The notes beneath the pieces were generated by a model, which was not told the DNA's origin, did not search any database, and saw only the letters and a list, made by a program, of their open reading frames with translations. Below are positions 2,219-15,728 of a stretch of 64,000 nt of DNA, in pieces. The translations under genes were made by a program, and so were the position numbers. Origin of the DNA: Cytophagales bacterium. GTDB lineage: Bacteria > Bacteroidota > Bacteroidia > Cytophagales > 172606-1. Within the stretch, counting starts at the first letter, position 1, and each line of letters opens with the position of its first letter. The DNA is taken from assembly GCA_030446715.1 (NCBI GenBank), contig JAUJMU010000009.1, positions 124,001 through 188,000 of the forward strand, given 5' to 3'.

Positions 2219-3565
2219 ATGAAATTACTCTTTCCGGCAATATGCCTCTTTTTACTGTTCATCCGCACTGCTCCCGTGGCAGGAGCCGGAGTTGCACCCC
2301 CTGATTCTACCAAAGCTTCCGTGAAGATCAATCCACGGGTGACTTATCAAACCATTACCAGCCTGAGCGGCAATTATTGCCAGGCACTTTACACGCCCTA
2401 TGCCCAAGACGAGGTGGGCCGCTTTACCCTCACTACCCTTAAACCTACCCACGTTCGTTTCCCGATCCCGGTCAAGAAATGGGAGCCGGAAAATGACAAC
2501 TCCAATCCAGCTGAAACCCGGCCCGAAGCTTACGTGATGGAGGGCGTGATGGGCGATTTGTTCAATTTCCTGCGTGAGATGAAAACCACCCCTGGCGTGC
2601 AGAACCTGACCGCTTCCGTGTGGGACGTGCCCGAGTGGCTGGTGAGCAACCCGCAGGAGAACCAGAAGCGCCGCATTCCCCGCAATCTGTACCCGGAGTT
2701 CGTGGAATCAGTGGTCCGCTTCCTGCAGGTTGCCAAAGGGCAGTACGGCGTAGAAATCGATTATTTTTCGGTAAATGAAGCCGACGGAGGCTACCAGTTA
2801 CTCTTCACGGCCCCGGAAATGATCGAACTCATCCGCGTAGCGGGGCCGGTGTTTGAAAGAGCCGGGCTGAAAACGAAATTTCTGACCGGCGATGTCCACA
2901 AAACGGCGGCTATTGTTCCATACGCCACCCCAATCCTTCAGGAGACATCCATCCGGAAGTACCTGGGCCCGATATCGTACCACTCATGGTGGTCTGACAG
3001 TGTGTCGGATAAGGAGTTCCGGGCCATTGCTGCCCTCGGCAAGCAGTACGGACTTCCGGTCTGGTGCGCCGAATTAGGTTACGATGCCTTTCTCTACAAG
3101 CAGAAGGAAGCCCATCAGACGTGGAGCAATGCCTGGAACACTGCTAAAATTTACCACCGCGTGCTCACGCTCAGCGGTGCTACGGTGACCCAGTACTGGA
3201 CGTTACAGAACAATTTTCCGATTGCTTCTGCCGATGGAAAGCCTTACCCGGCATGGTACGTGCACAAGCAACTCGCCGACAATTTACCCGCCGGTACGCA
3301 GATCGTTGAGGCTGTTTCGTCGGACGATAAACTTTGGGCACTGGCGGCAAGGGGAGAGGGCAGACATTTTATGACGCAACTGCTCAATACCTCCACCGTG
3401 GAAAAGGAAGTCACCCTCAGCGGTTTGCCCAAAGACGCCCTGCAGCAAGTGCTGATGCACGACGGCGAAAAGGGAAAGGAAATGGGAAGCCACAAGCCAA
3501 AAGCCGGGAAACTGACGCTGAAGCTGCCGCCGCAAAGCATTACGCTGCTGACCACGCGGAGGTGA
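2219..3565 (+). CDS. GH30-like secreted glycoside hydrolase
   Basis: 448 residues with an N-terminal signal peptide (hydrophobic core in the first 22 residues, ending VAGAG). The body has the layout of clan GH-A (beta/alpha)8 enzymes of the GH30 type. The proton donor is probably E187 in YFSVNEAD and the nucleophile E285 in VWCAELGYD. A C-terminal beta-domain ends LPPQSITLLTT, as is typical of GH30 proteins. Such enzymes cleave beta-1,6 or beta-1,4 linked sugars outside the cytoplasm; the specificity is unknown here. The ATG at 2219 follows a 209-bp gap and gives a clean signal peptide. Confidence 0.75.
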   Translation: MKLLFPAICLFLLFIRTAPVAGAGVAPPDSTKASVKINPRVTYQTITSLSGNYCQALYTPYAQDEVGRFTLTTLKPTHVRFPIPVKKWEPENDNSNPAETRPEAYVMEGVMGDLFNFLREMKTTPGVQNLTASVWDVPEWLVSNPQENQKRRIPRNLYPEFVESVVRFLQVAKGQYGVEIDYFSVNEADGGYQLLFTAPEMIELIRVAGPVFERAGLKTKFLTGDVHKTAAIVPYATPILQETSIRKYLGPISYHSWWSDSVSDKEFRAIAALGKQYGLPVWCAELGYDAFLYKQKEAHQTWSNAWNTAKIYHRVLTLSGATVTQYWTLQNNFPIASADGKPYPAWYVHKQLADNLPAGTQIVEAVSSDDKLWALAARGEGRHFMTQLLNTSTVEKEVTLSGLPKDALQQVLMHDGEKGKEMGSHKPKAGKLTLKLPPQSITLLTTRR

Positions 3566-7976: not shown

Positions 7977-8546
7977 CTACTCCGCCAGCCAGTTGCGGAT
8001 CATTTCCTTGCCGTGCTCCGTCAGGATGGATTCCGGGTGGAACTGCAGGCCCTTCACGTCGTACTGCCGGTGGCGGATGGCCATTACCTTCCCGTTCTCA
8101 TCTTCGGCTGTCACTTCCAGCACGTCGGGTACGGATTCGGGCACTACCGTCCAGGAGTGGTAGCGGCAGGTCTTGAATTCGCCCGGCAGGTTGTGGAACA
8201 GATTTTCGTCCGGACTGGTCACTACCGCCCTGGTTGCCACACCATGGAGCACATCCGACATATTTTCGAGCTGCGCCCCGAACACTTCCGATATGCCCTG
8301 GTGCCCAAGGCATATGCCGAGGATGCTCTTGGTAGCTGCATACTGCCGGATCAGGTGAGGCATTATGCCCGCTTCGGAAGGCAGGCCGGGGCCGGGGGAA
8401 AGCAGGATTTTGTCAAATTTCTCCACTTCTTCCAGCGTAATCTTGTCGTTGCGGTGTACTTCCAGTCCGCTGACGCCCAGTTCGCGGAGCAGGTGCACCA
8501 GGTTATAGGTAAACGAATCGTAATTGTCGAGAACGAGAATTTTCAT
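7977..8546 (-). CDS. trpG: Anthranilate synthase component II (glutamine amidotransferase)
   Basis: 189 residues counted from the ATG at 8544-8546, which gives the family start MKILVLDNYDSFTYNLVHLL; a longer reading upstream lacks support. The class I glutaminase triad is visible: Cys in GICLGHQG, and His and Glu in FHPESILTEHG. It supplies ammonia from glutamine to TrpE for anthranilate synthesis; in many bacteria the same subunit also serves PabB. It is the last gene of the trp operon on this strand, 37 bp after trpB2. Confidence 0.92.
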   Translation of the reverse strand: MKILVLDNYDSFTYNLVHLLRELGVSGLEVHRNDKITLEEVEKFDKILLSPGPGLPSEAGIMPHLIRQYAATKSILGICLGHQGISEVFGAQLENMSDVLHGVATRAVVTSPDENLFHNLPGEFKTCRYHSWTVVPESVPDVLEVTAEDENGKVMAIRHRQYDVKGLQFHPESILTEHGKEMIRNWLAE

Positions 8547-8583
8547 GGACTTAAAAAATAGAAAAGGTACGGATAGCGTAAGG

Positions 8584-9957
8584 TTATTCTGCGGTGAATG
8601 GCACTTGTAAATTATCAATTTCGGCCAGAGAACGTTCAATGTCGGCGGTAGTCACTTCTTCATCCACCAGCTTGCCCGACAGATAAGCTTCGTACGCCGC
8701 CATATCAAAATTACCGTGTCCGCACAGGTTAAACAAAATTGTTTTGGCCTTGCCTTCTTCTCTGGCCCGGTTTGCCTCCTGAATCACCGTGGTCAGGGCG
8801 TGATTGGCCTCGGGAGCCGGCACAATGCCCTCCGTACGGGCAAATAACAAACCCGCCTCAAAACATTCCCGCTGGTAATGAGACCGGGCCTCGATCAGGT
8901 TGTCTTTCAGCAACTGGCTCACAATGGCACCGGCACCGTGGTACCTGAGCCCACCGGCATGGATCGGGGAGGGCACAAAGTTATGCCCCAGCGTGTACAT
9001 CGGAATCAGCGGCGTCATGCCGATCGTGTCGCCGAAATCATAGCGGAATACGCCGCGGGTCAGCTTGGGGCAGGAGGCCGGCTCGCTGGCAATGCAGCGG
9101 ACTGATTTGCCTTCTTCAAAGTTGAGGCGCAGGAAGGGAAATGCAATGCCGGCAAAATTGGAGCCACCACCAAACGGGGCCACCACGATTTCGGGCATGT
9201 CGCCGGCCTTTTCCATCTGTTTGACAGCCTCCAGTCCGATGACCGTCTGGTGCATCAGGACGTGGTTGAGTACGCTGCCCAGCGCATATTTGGTCTGCGG
9301 ATCGCCGGCGGCTTTCTCCACTGCCTCCGAAATGGCAATGCCCAGGCTGCCCGGTGAGTCGGGGTTTTGGGAAAGAATCTGTTTGCCGGCTTCGGTCAGA
9401 CCCGAAGGCGAAGCATGCACTGTAGCCCCGTAAGTATTCATCACAATCCTCCGGTAGGGCTTCTGGTTGTAGCTTACCTTCACCATAAACACTTCGCACT
9501 CGATGCCAAACAACTGGCAGGCAAAGCTCAGGGCGGTGCCCCACTGCCCCGCACCGGTTTCGGTGGTGATCTTCCGGACGCCTTCCATCTTGTTGTAATA
9601 CGCCTGCGGTACGGCCGTATTTGGCTTGTGGGAGCCCGCCGGGCTCACGCCCTCGTACTTGTAGTAGATTTTGGCCGGGGTGTCCAAAGCCTTCTCCAAA
9701 CCATACGCCCGGTACAGGGGAGTTGGCCGCCAGAGGGTGTAAATATCCCGCACTTCTTCAGGTATGGTGACCCATTTTTCGGCCGTTACTTCCTGTTTGA
9801 TCAGTTCCATCGGAAACAGCGGTGCCAGCGCCTCGGGACCAATGGGCTGCTTTGTGCCGGGATGCAGCGGCGGCAGGGGTTTGTCAGGCATGTCGGCCAC
9901 GATGTTGTACCAGTGCGTAGGGATTTCTTTTTCGGTTAGCAGAATTTTGCGTTCCAT
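8584..9957 (-). CDS. trpB: TrpB2-type tryptophan synthase beta chain
   Basis: 457 residues, longer than the roughly 400 of classical TrpB and typical of the TrpB2 branch. The N-terminal extension carries IPTHWYNIVADMPDKPLPP, a TrpB2 hallmark. The PLP lysine lies in SPAGSHKPNTA, the phosphate-binding glycine loop is APFGGGSNF, and GLRYHGAG and NLCGHGNFD are conserved. TrpB2 condenses indole with serine to form tryptophan and often works without a tight TrpA partner. No trpA, trpC, trpD or trpF is seen in the window, so the remaining pathway genes lie elsewhere. It is cotranscribed with trpG. Confidence 0.92.
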   Translation of the reverse strand: MERKILLTEKEIPTHWYNIVADMPDKPLPPLHPGTKQPIGPEALAPLFPMELIKQEVTAEKWVTIPEEVRDIYTLWRPTPLYRAYGLEKALDTPAKIYYKYEGVSPAGSHKPNTAVPQAYYNKMEGVRKITTETGAGQWGTALSFACQLFGIECEVFMVKVSYNQKPYRRIVMNTYGATVHASPSGLTEAGKQILSQNPDSPGSLGIAISEAVEKAAGDPQTKYALGSVLNHVLMHQTVIGLEAVKQMEKAGDMPEIVVAPFGGGSNFAGIAFPFLRLNFEEGKSVRCIASEPASCPKLTRGVFRYDFGDTIGMTPLIPMYTLGHNFVPSPIHAGGLRYHGAGAIVSQLLKDNLIEARSHYQRECFEAGLLFARTEGIVPAPEANHALTTVIQEANRAREEGKAKTILFNLCGHGNFDMAAYEAYLSGKLVDEEVTTADIERSLAEIDNLQVPFTAE

Positions 9958-10206: not shown

Positions 10207-10887
10207 TTAACTTTTACTGATTCTCAACATCTTGTTTCCGTTGCGCTGAAACTCGTAAGCCACCGGTTCAATCCCAATCTGATACGCGCTGCCAAAGAAT
10301 TCAATAGTTTCTCCCAAAACACTTGATTCCTCGGCATTCAGGTCCAGAAGGGGAAAAATCCTTATCTCTCTGCATATTCTCATCATCTCTGTTATAGATT
10401 GCAGGTGAAAATCAAGACCAAGTTGTGCATAGAGCAGTAAAAAGTGAGAGCTAAGCCCTAGTTCAAACTCATCATCTTGGTAAATGGTCCTGTTGGGTAA
10501 GGCGTGAGCCAAGTATCTGCCTTCTTGCCTGCCAGGTTCGTAATCGGCCAGAAAGGTCTGCATGGCTTGCATCCGTACCTTCTCGAGTTCGTCGATATCT
10601 TTGATGAGTTTCCAAACGAAGTTCTGTTGGTTCCTTCGCGTTTGAGTGAGTACTTCTTGCCTGGTTTCCCGTATTCGTTGCGCTAAGTCCTCTTTGGAAA
10701 ATTCGTAAATAGGGTCTAGCGAAATTACTTTATGCCCCAGGCTTTTCATCTGCGCATTAAAACTGGCCGGGCCATCCCCTGCGCTAATGATCTTTTTAGC
10801 TAAATCTGCTTCGGTCAGGTTAAACATCAGCCGGTATTCTTTCAGGTTTCTGCCCCAGGGTACTACGCTCTTAAGTTCAAATGCCAT
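10207..10887 (-). CDS. SAM-dependent methyltransferase-like protein in the trp operon
   Basis: 226 residues. IISAGDGPASFNAQMKSLGH followed by SLDPIYEF has the form of motif I and the acidic end of strand 2 in class I methyltransferases, so it probably binds S-adenosylmethionine. The rest is helical and ends VAYEFQRNGNKMLRI. The substrate is unknown. The gene starts 36 bp after the trpE stop and runs the same way, so it should be co-transcribed with trpE under the attenuator. A link to tryptophan metabolism is only suggested by position. Confidence 0.65.
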   Translation of the reverse strand: MAFELKSVVPWGRNLKEYRLMFNLTEADLAKKIISAGDGPASFNAQMKSLGHKVISLDPIYEFSKEDLAQRIRETRQEVLTQTRRNQQNFVWKLIKDIDELEKVRMQAMQTFLADYEPGRQEGRYLAHALPNRTIYQDDEFELGLSSHFLLLYAQLGLDFHLQSITEMMRICREIRIFPLLDLNAEESSVLGETIEFFGSAYQIGIEPVAYEFQRNGNKMLRISKS

Positions 10888-10923: not shown

Positions 10924-12343
10924 TTACTGGATTCCTTGTGCCAATTCCAGCGCCTTGCGTAAAGCCCCTAACTTATTATTTACTTCCTGTAGTTCGCTTT
11001 CGATTTTAGACTTCGCCACCACGCCGGCACCCGCTTGGTAATATAAGACGTTGTTTTTACTCAGGAAGGAGCGGATCATGATGGCGTGGTTGAAGTCGCC
11101 GTTGAAGCCCATGAAGCCGATGCATCCGCCGTAGTATCCGCGGGAGGTCGGCTCGTAGGTATCAATCAGTTGCATGGCGCGGTGCTTGGGGGCCCCCGAC
11201 AGCGTACCCGCCGGGAACGTATCGGCTACCATCTGTACCGTCGCCACCCCGTCGTCCATGCGGCTGGTTACTTTGGATACCAGGTGAATCACGTGGGAAT
11301 AATATTGGATTTCCTTGAAAGTTTCCACGGTCACGTGGGTGCCGTTGCGGCTGAGGTCGTTGCGGGCTAAGTCCACCAGCATCACGTGTTCGGCGTTTTC
11401 CTTGGGGTCGTCGTATAGTTCCTGGGCGAGTTGGGCGTCGGCCTGGTCGTTACCGGTGCGGCGGAAGGTGCCGGCAATCGGGTAAATGGTGGCCTGGCCC
11501 TTTTTGATGGTGATCTGCGCTTCGGGCGAGGAGCCGAATATTTTAAAAGAGCCAAAGTCGAAGTAGAACAGGTAAGGCGAGGGATTGATGGAACGCAGGG
11601 CCCGGTACACGTTGAACTCGTCGCCGGTTGAAGGACTGCGTAAACCGCCGGGAAAGTACGATCTGAAACACATCACCCAGCTTGCAGTGCCGCTGGCCTT
11701 GGGCCAGTATTTCCAGAAAGGCCTCATCGGTAAGGTTGGAGGATTCATCTCCTCTGGTTTGGAAATGATAAGAGGGAAAATTCTTGTTTTGAATGAGCGA
11801 AACAATATAGGACAGATCCTGCTGACTGTCACCTGAAAAGCCCTCCGGCTGGTGCTCAAACACGTACAGGTCGTCTTTGAAATGATTGATGGCAATCACA
11901 TACCGGAACACCTGGTAAATCATCTCCGGAATCCGGTTTTCCTGCGTGTCACGTTTCCGCAGTCCGATCTCTTCAAAGTGCTGCACGGAATCATAGGCCA
12001 TATAGCCGAACAGTCCATTGTGAATGAAGGGAAACTGGTTGCTGTCGGTGCTGAACTGCTGCCGGAACCGGTCTAAGGCATCTGCCACCTCGCGATGGTG
12101 CGAAACGGTGCGCTTCTCTTCACGGCCGTCGGGAAACTGCTGCAGCAAAGTATCGCCGCTCAGTTCAAATTTGGCAATGGGTTGGCAGCAGATGTAGGAA
12201 AAGGAGTTTTCGTTGCCGTGGTAATCGGAACTCTCCAGCAGAATGGTGTTCACGAACCGGTCACGGAGTTTCAGGTAAATGCTCACCGGCGTTACAGTAT
12301 CGGCAAGCATCTGACGGAAGGTGGTAGTCAGTTTGTATTTCAT
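10924..12343 (-). pseudogene. trpE: Anthranilate synthase component I, interrupted by a frameshift
   Basis: Two overlapping frames together encode a complete TrpE of about 472 residues. The first part starts at the ATG at 12341-12343 (MKYKLTTTFRQ) and includes the tryptophan-binding motif LLES and FPFIHNGLFGYMAYD, then GDVFQIVLSRRF. The frame is lost at about 11629-11636, and the other frame resumes with GDEFNVYRALRSINPSPYLF. It continues with PIAGTFRRTG, MLVDLARNDLS and GTLSGAPKHRAMQLID, the chorismate-binding core. Adding or removing one base restores the gene. Because it heads an otherwise intact, attenuated trp operon, a sequencing error is a real possibility; a true mutation would make the strain a tryptophan auxotroph. 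Confidence 0.9.
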
Positions 12344-12382: not shown

Positions 12383-12415
12383 AAAAAAGGCCTGCGATAA
12401 GAACCGCAAGCCTTT
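12383..12415 (-). terminator. Attenuator terminator of the trp operon
   Basis: On the minus strand an 11-bp stem (AAAGGCTTGCG pairing with CGCAGGCCTTT, one G-T wobble) with an 8-base loop is followed by a T run. It lies between the Trp-rich leader peptide and the trpE start, where a transcription attenuator is expected. An alternative upstream pairing is visible between CGCAATA in the leader reading frame (12488-12494) and TATTGCG at 12440-12446. I could not resolve a convincing antiterminator by eye. Confidence 0.8.
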
Positions 12416-12461
12416 CCGGATAAAATATGCTTTTATTCACGCAATAGCCTTTGGTCCGTAC

Positions 12462-12509
12462 TTAAGAAGTACGCCACCACCAGGAGATATTGCGGAAAGA
12501 GTTGTTCAT
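12462..12509 (-). CDS. trpL: trp operon leader peptide with three consecutive Trp codons
   Basis: A 15-codon ORF reads MNNSFRNISWWWRTS and stops at TAA (12462-12464). Three adjacent TGG codons in a 15-residue peptide, placed 45 bp upstream of a terminator hairpin and about 120 bp upstream of trpE, are the signature of ribosome-mediated attenuation. When charged tRNA-Trp is scarce, the ribosome stalls at the Trp codons and the terminator fails to form. The ORF starts only 13 bases after the -7 box, so the leader mRNA probably has a very short 5' end. A 7-bp palindrome, CGTACTT-CTT-AAGTACG, overlaps the end of the ORF. Confidence 0.85.
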   Translation of the reverse strand: MNNSFRNISWWWRTS

Positions 12510-12523
12510 AAACTGATTTTTGA

Positions 12524-12554
12524 CAAATATAGAATCTGCTTCAGATAAAGCAAA
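12524..12554 (-). promoter_or_regulatory. Bacteroidota-type promoter of the trp operon
   Basis: On the minus strand TTTG (12551-12554) and TATATTTG (12524-12531) are separated by exactly 19 bases. This fits the Bacteroidota primary sigma consensus TTTG-N19-TAnnTTTG. It lies immediately upstream of trpL. Confidence 0.8.
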
Positions 12555-12599: not shown

Positions 12600-15500
12600 C
12601 TAACTGGTTTTCTTCAGCGTCATCAGGTACTCAACGAGGTCGGCCAGTTGCTGATCGGTCATGTTTTCGTGCAAACCAGTCGGCATCATGGAGTTATCCA
12701 TCTTCTTCATGCTGGCTACGTCCTTGCGCTTCAGCTTAAGGGCTGAGCCGCCGGGCATCTTCAGATCAATATCATTTTCAGTCTGGCTGGCAATAATGCC
12801 CATATTCACTGAGCCATCTTTCATTTTGATTTCGTAACCTTCGTATCCGACGGCGTCGGGGTGGAGGATAGAAGCATACTGCGCTTCCTTGGGAAGTTTG
12901 CTGCCGATCTCCGACAGTTTGGGTCCGAAGTCAGCGCCCTGGCCGTTTACCTGGTGGCATACGGAGCAGTTGCTCTGGAATACTGTCATGCCATTCTGCG
13001 GATTGCCTTTCATTGCCAGCAGGTCGCTGATAGCCGGCATCTTTTTACCGGTTCCCGCGGCGGCACCCAGATAGGTGGAGGCTTCCTGCCGTACCGCCCG
13101 GCGCCAGGCGTTCATCAGCCCGCTGGCGGCGGAGGCTTTCAGTTCTTCGGGAAACTTATTCTCGCGAAGCATCGCCAGCACGTGATTTTCACCGCCGCCG
13201 CTGCCACCCATGGCCCGGGCGGCTTCCCGGCGCAGGTTCAGCGGATATTTGGCATTAAAAGCCGTTTCCTGCAGGATAGCCAGCGATTCTTTGCTGCCTA
13301 CGCCCCTTAATGCTGCGATGACATCAAATGCAGCTTTTTCATCTTTTCCGCCAATGGTGCCTGTTACCAGCTGCGAACCTCCCTGCCTGAGCAGCGCATT
13401 AACTGCATTCTTACCGGTTCTGCTGTTGCTCTGCGACAGGGCCAGCTGCAGCAGGCGTGTATTTTCCTCCTTCAACTCATAGCGGGTTACCAGTTCCACA
13501 AACTCCTGGGTTCCTTCTACTGCATTCAGTACATCTTTCAGGGCTTTGGTGGCTACCGGTGAGGAGCGGATGTGGCCCGGATCAAGGTGCGTAAGCGCCA
13601 GTTTGTTGATCTGCGTCTGCTCATTGCCGGTGCCTTCCATCATTTTGACCAGTGCAGCCGATTTGGCGGCCTTGTCAGGGTTAAAATCAAAAGCCCGGAA
13701 GTAACGCAGGCGGCTCTGCAGCGGCTCTTTGGAGTCGGAAGCAAGGCTGGCCAGCAAGGGTACAGCAGCTCCGGTACGGGCCCGCCATACAATGCCGCGG
13801 CCGGCGGCGTTGCTCAGGGGATTGCTGCCGGCGTCTTTCAGCCACGCGGCAAAAAAGCGGTCCCACTGCTTGTCGGCGCCAATGCCCAGCGCCTCCAGGT
13901 ACCAGCGGTCCTGTCCGTCGTAGGCTTTGGCCAGCTGGGTCCAGATGGCGGGGGCTTCCGGAGTATTGTTATGCCGCAGGGCAATGGCCACTTCGCGGCG
14001 TACCTGCGCATCAGGGTCACCCGCCAGTTGCTGCAGGTAGGGAACCATGTTCAGATCCAGTTGCCGGGCGGCTCTCAGGCCGGTAATGCGGATGTCGGGG
14101 TTGGCGTCTTTGAGGGCCATCTCCACGTATTTCCGACCCTTGCCTTCTATTTTGGTCAGCATCCATAAAGCCCGGGCCTTCATCCGCGGATCGTTGCCTT
14201 TGTAAAGTTTTACCAGGCCCTTTTCGGCTTTGGTGCCCATGCCCTTCAGCTTTTGATAGGCTTGGTAGCGCACCGAAAGGTTGGGGTTCTGCAAGGCAGC
14301 TACGGCACCTTTGGCCGAGTTCAGGTCAACTTTGGGCTGCTTGTAAGGCGTATTGGGCGGGGCTATGCGGAAGACGCGGCCGCGGTTCAGGTCGCCGGCC
14401 TGGTGGCCGCCCACGCCGGGGTCGTACCAGTCGGCTACCATCAGGGAGCCATCCGGAGCCACGCATACGTCAGATGGCCGGAACCACTGGTCGCGCACGC
14501 CTTCCATGATGTTGACAATGGAACCCTTATAGCCGGCACCATCCTTCTGTACCGGATAAGCACGTACCACGTTGGGGCCGGCATCAGAGTGGATCATCTG
14601 CCCGCGGAAGGGGTCGGGCAAGAGGGTTCCTTCATAAATGAGCATGCCGGTAGGGGAGCCGGCACCCGTCTGCAGCAGGTTGGGTACTACACCGGGGTCA
14701 TTGAGGTGCCAGTGGCGGCGGGGAATTTCCGGTTCAATGTTGGTGCGGTTGGCCTGCCAGCCGGCGCCGGTCATTTCGTCGGTGTAGCCGTAGTTGCCGT
14801 ATTCCATCACGTAGTTGATGCGCACGCCCTTGTTGCCGTCGTCGTCGTTGTCGGATTGCCACATGGTGCCGTAGGAGTCAACGGCCACTTCGTAGTTGTT
14901 GCGGAAGTTATGGCCCAGTACCTCAATCTGCGTAAAATCAGGGTTGGAACGAAATACCATGCCCTGCTTGTAGTTTTTCAGCGAAATTTCGTTGCCGGCC
15001 ATGTCTTTTACCGGATTGCCTTTGGCGTCCAGCAACTGTTCGCCGGCGTTGCCGAAGTTGAAGTAAAACTTGCCATCCGGACCAAAGGTAAAGGCGTGCA
15101 TGCCGTGGTCGTGCTGTTCGCCTTCAATGCCCTGAAAGATCACCTCTTTTTTGTCGGCCTTGTCGTCGCCGTCCGTGTCGGTAAACAGCCACACGTAGGG
15201 GCTTTGCGACACAATGGCCCGGTTGCCCATTACCCAGATGCCCAGCGGAGCATTGAGTTCTGGTCCCTGGTAGAAGACGGTGTTTTTGTCACTCCTGCCG
15301 TCTCCGTCAGTGTCTTCCAGGATCATGATCCGGTCGCCTTCCCTTTTGGTCGGGTTTCCGGTGATGTCAGGACGGTAGTTGAAGGCTTCACACACCCATA
15401 CGCGGCCCCGGTGGTCTACGTCAAGGTTGGTCGGGTTGGTGATGACCGGTTCGGAGGCAAACAATCTGGCTTCGAGTCCATCGGCAATTTTTATTCCCCT

Positions 15501-15728
15501 GAGGGCATTTTCCGGCAGGCGCTTCTGCCCGTCGGTCAGGTTGCTGTACAGGGTGTCCAGGTACTGCTCCCTGACGGCCGGATCATTTGAAGTCTGGTAC
15601 CAGGCACTGGCAACCAGCATCAGGGTACCCAGTGTTACCGGCGCGGCCCGCCGGAGGGAACGCAGGAAGGTGTTCTGCCCGGCGGCAGACGGAGCATCAG
15701 GGGTAATCCGTGGCATAGGAGATGACAT
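12600..15728 (-). CDS. PVC-type membrane-bound dehydrogenase with HEAT repeats and cytochrome c domain
   Basis: 1042 residues in three parts. After an N-terminal hydrophobic segment (VTLGTLMLVASAWYQ, likely membrane anchor or signal) comes a beta-propeller with EARLFASEPVITNPTNLDVD and repeated DTDGDGRSDK / DTDGDDKADK calcium-binding-like loops; this is the putative membrane-bound dehydrogenase domain. A middle region of alpha-helical HEAT-like repeats follows (roughly residues 480-880). The C-terminus has one haem c site, CSVCH, followed by GADFGPKLSEIGSKL and a distal Met candidate. Such proteins are thought to oxidise sugars or alcohols in the periplasm and pass electrons through the haem; the substrate is unknown. 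Transcription stands alone, upstream of the trp promoter. Confidence 0.82.
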   Translation of the reverse strand: MSSPMPRITPDAPSAAGQNTFLRSLRRAAPVTLGTLMLVASAWYQTSNDPAVREQYLDTLYSNLTDGQKRLPENALRGIKIADGLEARLFASEPVITNPTNLDVDHRGRVWVCEAFNYRPDITGNPTKREGDRIMILEDTDGDGRSDKNTVFYQGPELNAPLGIWVMGNRAIVSQSPYVWLFTDTDGDDKADKKEVIFQGIEGEQHDHGMHAFTFGPDGKFYFNFGNAGEQLLDAKGNPVKDMAGNEISLKNYKQGMVFRSNPDFTQIEVLGHNFRNNYEVAVDSYGTMWQSDNDDDGNKGVRINYVMEYGNYGYTDEMTGAGWQANRTNIEPEIPRRHWHLNDPGVVPNLLQTGAGSPTGMLIYEGTLLPDPFRGQMIHSDAGPNVVRAYPVQKDGAGYKGSIVNIMEGVRDQWFRPSDVCVAPDGSLMVADWYDPGVGGHQAGDLNRGRVFRIAPPNTPYKQPKVDLNSAKGAVAALQNPNLSVRYQAYQKLKGMGTKAEKGLVKLYKGNDPRMKARALWMLTKIEGKGRKYVEMALKDANPDIRITGLRAARQLDLNMVPYLQQLAGDPDAQVRREVAIALRHNNTPEAPAIWTQLAKAYDGQDRWYLEALGIGADKQWDRFFAAWLKDAGSNPLSNAAGRGIVWRARTGAAVPLLASLASDSKEPLQSRLRYFRAFDFNPDKAAKSAALVKMMEGTGNEQTQINKLALTHLDPGHIRSSPVATKALKDVLNAVEGTQEFVELVTRYELKEENTRLLQLALSQSNSRTGKNAVNALLRQGGSQLVTGTIGGKDEKAAFDVIAALRGVGSKESLAILQETAFNAKYPLNLRREAARAMGGSGGGENHVLAMLRENKFPEELKASAASGLMNAWRRAVRQEASTYLGAAAGTGKKMPAISDLLAMKGNPQNGMTVFQSNCSVCHQVNGQGADFGPKLSEIGSKLPKEAQYASILHPDAVGYEGYEIKMKDGSVNMGIIASQTENDIDLKMPGGSALKLKRKDVASMKKMDNSMMPTGLHENMTDQQLADLVEYLMTLKKTS

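Follow-up and report, generated by a model that had tools for sequence, protein, structure and literature searches.

We found that trpE in the window, the whole 64,000-nucleotide stretch of DNA that was analyzed, is in all likelihood controlled by a ribosome-mediated transcription attenuator that works as in the trp operon of E. coli. A short ORF with adjacent Trp codons precedes the biosynthetic gene, and an intrinsic terminator lies between this ORF and trpE. For the group of related leaders, there is also an antiterminator that excludes the terminator, is covered by a terminating ribosome, and is left free by a stalled one, with only a modest contrast in the window itself. At the level of sequence, we could demonstrate the anatomy of the element, its recurrence in relatives, and the covariation of its alternative pairing.

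The elements claimed upstream of trpE in an initial sequence-only reading, namely a TTTG-N19-TATATTTG promoter, an ORF encoding three consecutive Trp residues, a 7-bp palindrome, and a terminator, were all read directly on the minus strand. The Bacteroidota-type promoter comprises TTTG at 12551-12554, taken as the −33 box, and the −7 box TATATTTG (TAnnTTTG) at 12524-12531, with a spacer of 19 nt between them. The leader peptide ORF, MNNSFRNISWWWRTS (12462-12509, minus strand), was delimited from the sequence, its translation, and its recurrence before trpE. It has 15 codons, with the three adjacent Trp codons at 12482-12474 and a TAA stop at 12464-12462, and its ATG lies 14 nt from the −7 box rather than the 13 bases first counted. 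The palindrome, CGTACTT-CTT-AAGTACG (12473-12457, minus strand), overlaps the stop codon. The terminator (12383-12416, minus strand), identified from sequence and folds, has arms AAAGGCTTGCG (12415-12405) and CGCAGGCCTTT (12396-12386) with one G·U pair and six T residues at 12388-12383. The terminator is strong and its T run is as first described, but the stem is 14 bp long in the fold (12416-12403 with 12398-12385) and not 11 bp. The trpE ATG follows at 12343, 39 nt past the T run. E. coli TrpL ends in the same five residues as this leader peptide, WWRTS, which is most likely convergence or chance.

When the untranslated leader was folded, it reached −47.9 kcal/mol compared to −30.2 ± 3.7 kcal/mol for dinucleotide shuffles (z −4.8, with 0 of 200 as good). 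This fold contains what we call the protector structure (12437-12496, minus strand), which is also supported by the exchange of partners between families. Its outer stem encloses the Trp codons and has as its core CGCAAUA (12494-12488) paired with UAUUGCG (12446-12440). Within it, the palindrome forms the inner hairpin CGUACUU-CUU-AAGUACG (12457-12473, minus strand), and ACCA (12455-12452) pairs with the Trp-codon sequence.

The WWW ORF alone is not strong evidence, since a short ORF containing two or more Trp codons also turned up in 163 of the 2900 mononucleotide shuffles (∼6%) made from 29 upstream regions. What we regard as decisive evidence that the leader exceeds chance is its conservation. 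Among 59 genomes chosen as relatives, that of the window included, 55 had a match to the TrpE piece, and 30 loci were retrieved. Of 29 upstream regions scanned (the window and 28 relatives), 22 contained a short ORF with two Trp codons or more, versus 2 on the opposite strand. Across the order, 129 upstream regions were compared: that of the window, and those of 128 genomes out of a further 151 that matched trpE. A leader ORF with adjacent Trp codons (WW) preceded trpE in 96 of these versus 3 of 129 on the opposite strand, and was not found in the remaining 33 regions; the 96 come from 16 of the 18 families and from 52 of the 72 genera. One genome (G083) was excluded from this set for lack of a recognizable trpE motif; another 40 regions in which the motif was likewise not found were counted untrimmed, and five short regions (183-559 bases) were counted as well. 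The leader ORFs in this count are uncurated, and a few (e.g., those in G024, G064, G110, and G123) are probably chance. A lack of conservation in relatives had been named as refuting the initial reading, and these counts do not refute it. A terminator was found behind 94 of the 96 WW leaders, and the two without one were excluded from the pairing and later analyses (n = 94). Among the best 80 of 582 named loci, 70 have a WW leader ORF versus 1 on the opposite strand. Nearly all are titled Bacteroidota, from several orders, and one is titled Chlorobiota; several genomes are shared with the set of 129 regions, and three loci have fewer than 310 bases upstream.

Folding the leader for competing structures gave the protector and terminator on one side and a proposed antiterminator on the other, a pairing that the sequence-only reading had left open. 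Since a fold of the whole freed transcript shows the terminator, nascent transcripts were folded instead. Based on their minimum free energy structures and on covariation, we propose that the antiterminator pairs the leader-stop region with the terminator 5′ arm and loop. In the window, the putative 5′ strand, GGACC (12457-12453) and AGGCU (12450-12446), occupies 12446-12457 on the minus strand directly behind the leader stop codon. Its 3′ strand, GGCUU (12412-12408) and GGUUC (12405-12401), spans 12401-12412 on the same strand and coincides with the terminator 5′ arm and the start of its loop. The partners are thus GGACC AA AGGCU and GGCUU GC GGUUC. Relatives carry, at the leader stop or immediately after it, a segment complementary to the terminator loop and 5′ arm. 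For instance, by eye, GUGUGAAC pairs with GUUCACAC in G006, and GGGAUGAGGU pairs with ACCGCAUCCC in G034 with one mismatch. A different antiterminator, formed by the repeat AAAGGCUAUUGCG and the terminator 3′ arm CGCAGGCCUUU, was considered on sequence grounds and dropped: the 3′ arm is the last part to be transcribed, and in relatives the leader-stop region finds its partner in the 5′ arm and loop.

The native antiterminator duplexes had a mean energy of −13.3 kcal/mol compared to −10.1 ± 0.27 kcal/mol for permuted partners, and 0 of 200 permutations were as good. Because related genomes are not independent, family-wise counts of partner exchange are fairer. By this measure, native antiterminator partners beat those of foreign families in 14 of the 16 families, the pairing being unsupported in two (f14 and f7), and native outer-stem partners did so in 13 of 16, with no support in three (f17, f20, and f7). 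Exchange between genera within families gave −10.8 versus −13.8 for native partners over 584 ordered pairs. For the family of the window, the difference was −4.6 kcal/mol in favor of the native antiterminator.

We then placed a ribosome on the nascent folds, with an assumed, approximate footprint that ends 12 nt past the first nucleotide of the codon in the A site. Averaged over the 94 leaders, the share of the terminator 5′ arm that paired upstream was 0.66 when the ribosome stood on the last Trp codon, 0.32 when it stood at the stop, and 0.48 for shuffled sequence; at least half of the arm was engaged upstream in 85 of 94 leaders when stalled versus 25 of 94 at the stop. In the window, the stalled state gave a nascent antiterminator hairpin of −18.1 to −18.4 kcal/mol while polymerase moved from 12400 to 12391, and the terminator took over (−23.6 to −26.8) when its 3′ arm had been transcribed. 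A ribosome at the stop codon likewise left the terminator to form, at −24.1. The corresponding 5′ arm pairing was 0.77 when stalled, 0.56 for shuffled sequence, and 0.54 at the stop, so the switch computed for the window is modest and less clean than average, since AGGCU and GGCUU stay free to pair when the ribosome is at the stop. Likewise, the stalled antiterminator fold of the window surpassed shuffles by only a modest margin (z −1.83; 9 of 200 folded equally well), and the 5′ arm measure showed little excess in its family (0.62 versus 0.57 shuffled).

The transcript start, ribosome footprint, kinetics, and tryptophan response are those that we infer in the following mechanism. RNA polymerase would start near 12519, and a ribosome would begin the 15-codon leader at once. 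When charged tRNA-Trp is plentiful, the ribosome would reach the UAA codon with its footprint over GGACC (12457-12453), and the terminator (12416-12385) would form and end transcription before trpE. When charged tRNA-Trp is scarce, the ribosome would stall on UGG UGG UGG and leave GGACC and AGGCU free to pair with the nascent GGUUC and GGCUU before the terminator 3′ arm is made. This antiterminator pairing would let polymerase continue into trpE. In the absence of translation, the outer stem and the Trp-codon pairing would sequester the antiterminator strand, giving the terminator by default. On this scheme, expression of trpE is most likely confined to tryptophan shortage.

The TAnnTTTG box is placed at −12 to −5 in PMC9723704, and from this we predict a transcript start at about 12519 and a 5′ UTR of about 10 nt for the window leader. 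The peptide had been described as almost leaderless; the predicted 5′ UTR is indeed short, but at this length the transcript would not be leaderless. Of the 94 leaders, 46 have a TAnnTTTG box no more than 60 nt before their ATG (5% in shuffles), 27 have one at most 20 nt before it (1.7% in shuffles), and 18 at most 14 nt before it; no exact box was found within 60 nt in the other 48. In some genera, the predicted 5′ UTR is 0-6 nt. Given published backgrounds of about 3.7% for Bacteroides 5′ UTRs below 10 nt (PMC7366714) and 5.5% for leaderless mRNAs (PMC9723704), short predicted 5′ UTRs look over-represented among the trp leaders of this order.

Three other explanations were weighed against attenuation. 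One is that the terminator serves only to end the transcript of the upstream gene (12600-15728), the WWW ORF having arisen by chance. In its favor, ∼6% of shuffled upstream regions (163 of 2900) yield a Trp-rich short ORF, and the upstream gene ends ∼180 nt before the terminator. However, the leader ORF, the terminator, and their mutual pairing recur in most families sampled, and a promoter box stands between the upstream gene and the leader, as it does for 46 of 94 leaders; we consider this explanation highly improbable. T-boxes and leader-binding proteins control trp genes in Firmicutes, and such a tryptophan or tRNA sensor could act on the terminator with the leader peptide being secondary. 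No Rfam family, T-box included, matched at its gathering score anywhere in the window, and of the weak matches in the leader, the best-scoring is to the Bacteroidota trp leader family (RF01692). Among 11 relatives chosen with RF01692, independently of Trp codons, neither the ATG nor the third Trp codon varies in the alignment, and a sensor of another kind seems no more credible to us than a chance ORF.

Leader peptides can also regulate translation, and the trpE start only 39 nt past the T run would suit a leader that acts on translation of trpE rather than on transcription. The intrinsic terminator behind 94 of 96 leaders argues against this, as do the untranslated tRNA-Trp genes that lie between terminator and trpE in four relatives, and we give translational control a very small chance, marginally above that of the other two. 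Attenuation of trpE by a leader peptide, as originally suggested, is thus supported by the recurring WW(W) ORF, the terminator, and the covarying antiterminator.

The gene behind the attenuator, trpE (anthranilate synthase I; 10924-12343, minus strand), had TIGR00564 as the best match on both of its pieces, each below the whole-protein cut-off. Analysis by tblastn indicated a single change of frame near 11629, with halves 62% and 88% identical to the TrpE of G006. Among the TrpE places listed, only two others (G047 and G122) have an internal stop. Since trpC of the same genome (G000:C8:244394-245102) is also split over two frames, two breaks fall in one pathway, which suggests that both are probably assembly indel errors; a real loss of the tryptophan pathway is less likely. 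Farther along the minus strand, the trpE-trpG unit contains a 226-aa ORF (10207-10887) for which neither NCBIfam nor Pfam gave a match at E 0.001, a TrpB-like PLP enzyme (8584-9957; NF009057 and TIGR01415 above cut-off), and a trpG-type glutamine amidotransferase (7977-8546, its start inferred; TIGR00566 above cut-off on 7977-8639). Elsewhere in the genome are trpD-trpC-trpF-trpB (contig C8) and trpA (contig C7). In a scan for WW leaders over the first 1600 bases of three trp loci of this genome, the sole ORF containing adjacent Trp codons was one situated ∼180 nt before trpA.

Outside the window, we observed extra tRNA-Trp genes between the attenuator terminator and trpE in 4 of 129 regions from two families. 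Three belong to one genus (L056:1400-1473 in G003, L057:2953-3026 in G005, and L015:3173-3247 in G007), in which tRNA-Trp(CCA) starts within ∼15 nt of the T run and ends before trpE. In the other family, G059 carries two such genes (L059:2924-2995 and 3024-3095) behind an apparent attenuator that, by eye, has a single Trp codon. All four genomes have a further tRNA-Trp elsewhere, which is 74% identical to the extra copy in G003, and the acceptor stems of the extra copies are still paired though both sides differ from the other copy. Since there is little room for a separate promoter, the extra genes are probably made only on readthrough. A literature search limited in its sources and wordings found, on tRNA-Trp genes behind a trp attenuator, one listed Corynebacterium paper and nothing else. 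A separate observation concerns six f10 genomes (G034, G049, G062, G100, G113, and G150), in which tRNA-Pro(CGG) lies on the same strand before the trp leader ORF, at 13-33 nt in four and about 130-160 nt in two; given this arrangement, the leader may be co-transcribed with the tRNA.

Leader-peptide attenuation is usually taught as a proteobacterial trait. In the loci sampled here, it is the usual arrangement before trpE (96 of 129 regions of the order; 70 of the best 80 of 582 named loci), and the element in the window is a well-formed, ordinary case of a control element known in the phylum. The antiterminator proposed here, the missing half of the mechanism, can be read from covariation and gives testable base pairs. 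Tentatively, and with more doubt than conviction, we suggest that the trp attenuator is often fast and nearly leaderless in this order and that tRNA-Trp is an additional output in some lineages, since the extra tRNA-Trp genes sit immediately behind the terminator. If so, the element would both sense the supply of charged tRNA-Trp and replenish the tRNA; the genes behind the attenuator, if confirmed, would tie tRNA supply to the sensor of tRNA charging.

The sequence-only reading held so clear an instance in a Bacteroidota-type promoter context to be worth documenting, but it is not the first: Rfam already holds RF01692, Bacteroid-trp, described as a Bacteroidete tryptophan peptide leader RNA and included in a table of PMC2864571, and PMC6414381 also describes such a leader, so the window attenuator is not new to the phylum. 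The window matched RF01692 from end to end, the AUG and the Trp codons falling into register, yet scored 22.2 bits and did not reach the gathering cut-off of 49; under stricter search filters, RF01692 had no match in its genome. Over the 59 genomes, 17 matched at E ≤1 with 19 matches, 11 of which lie just upstream of trpE. Among these trpE-linked relatives, two scored above the cut-off (65.5 and 50.8 bits), two of the window's family scored 48.4-48.5 bits, and three were weak (E 0.5-0.9); the other 8 matches lie elsewhere with E ≥0.169. A covariance model, R1, was built from the 11 trpE-linked matches with the window excluded. Its sole hit in the window up to E 10 was at 12529-12405 (39.3 bits, E 3.3e-4 in 97 kb), and since R1 has just 8 base pairs, this is mostly a sequence test. 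R1 found five of six other trpE loci, two of them weakly, missing the related leader L015, and found nothing in two unrelated loci. The alignment and R1 together point to homology with accepted members in position, leader ORF, and architecture. By the Rfam cut-off, the window is not a member of RF01692; by homology, as judged from sequence, it is a divergent one, and RF01692 is thereby extended to members below its cut-off.

RF01692 and the window leader share their phylum, their position before trp genes, and the register of AUG and Trp codons, whereas the alignment shows that the RF01692 model ends in the terminator 5′ arm, leaves it unpaired, and lacks the antiterminator pairing. In Flavobacterium psychrophilum, a Bacteroid-trp RNA lies upstream of the trp operon and has been likened to E. 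coli (PMC6414381), and strong clues for leader-peptide attenuation before amino-acid operons have been reported (PMC9723704). This species belongs to another order, and the antiterminator is absent from its description in the portions of PMC6414381 and PMC9723704 consulted. E. coli trpL resembles the window leader in its Trp codons and in an antiterminator that is open with a stalled ribosome, closed with a terminating one, and weaker than the terminator. The same computation on trpL gave textbook behavior, with 0.71 of the arm paired when stalled and 0 at the stop, and nascent energies of −15.6 kcal/mol, then −20.3 with the terminator complete. The two differ in that trpL has two Trp codons and the window three, and in the short predicted 5′ UTR of the window leader behind a TAnnTTTG promoter; the likeness may be one of design only.
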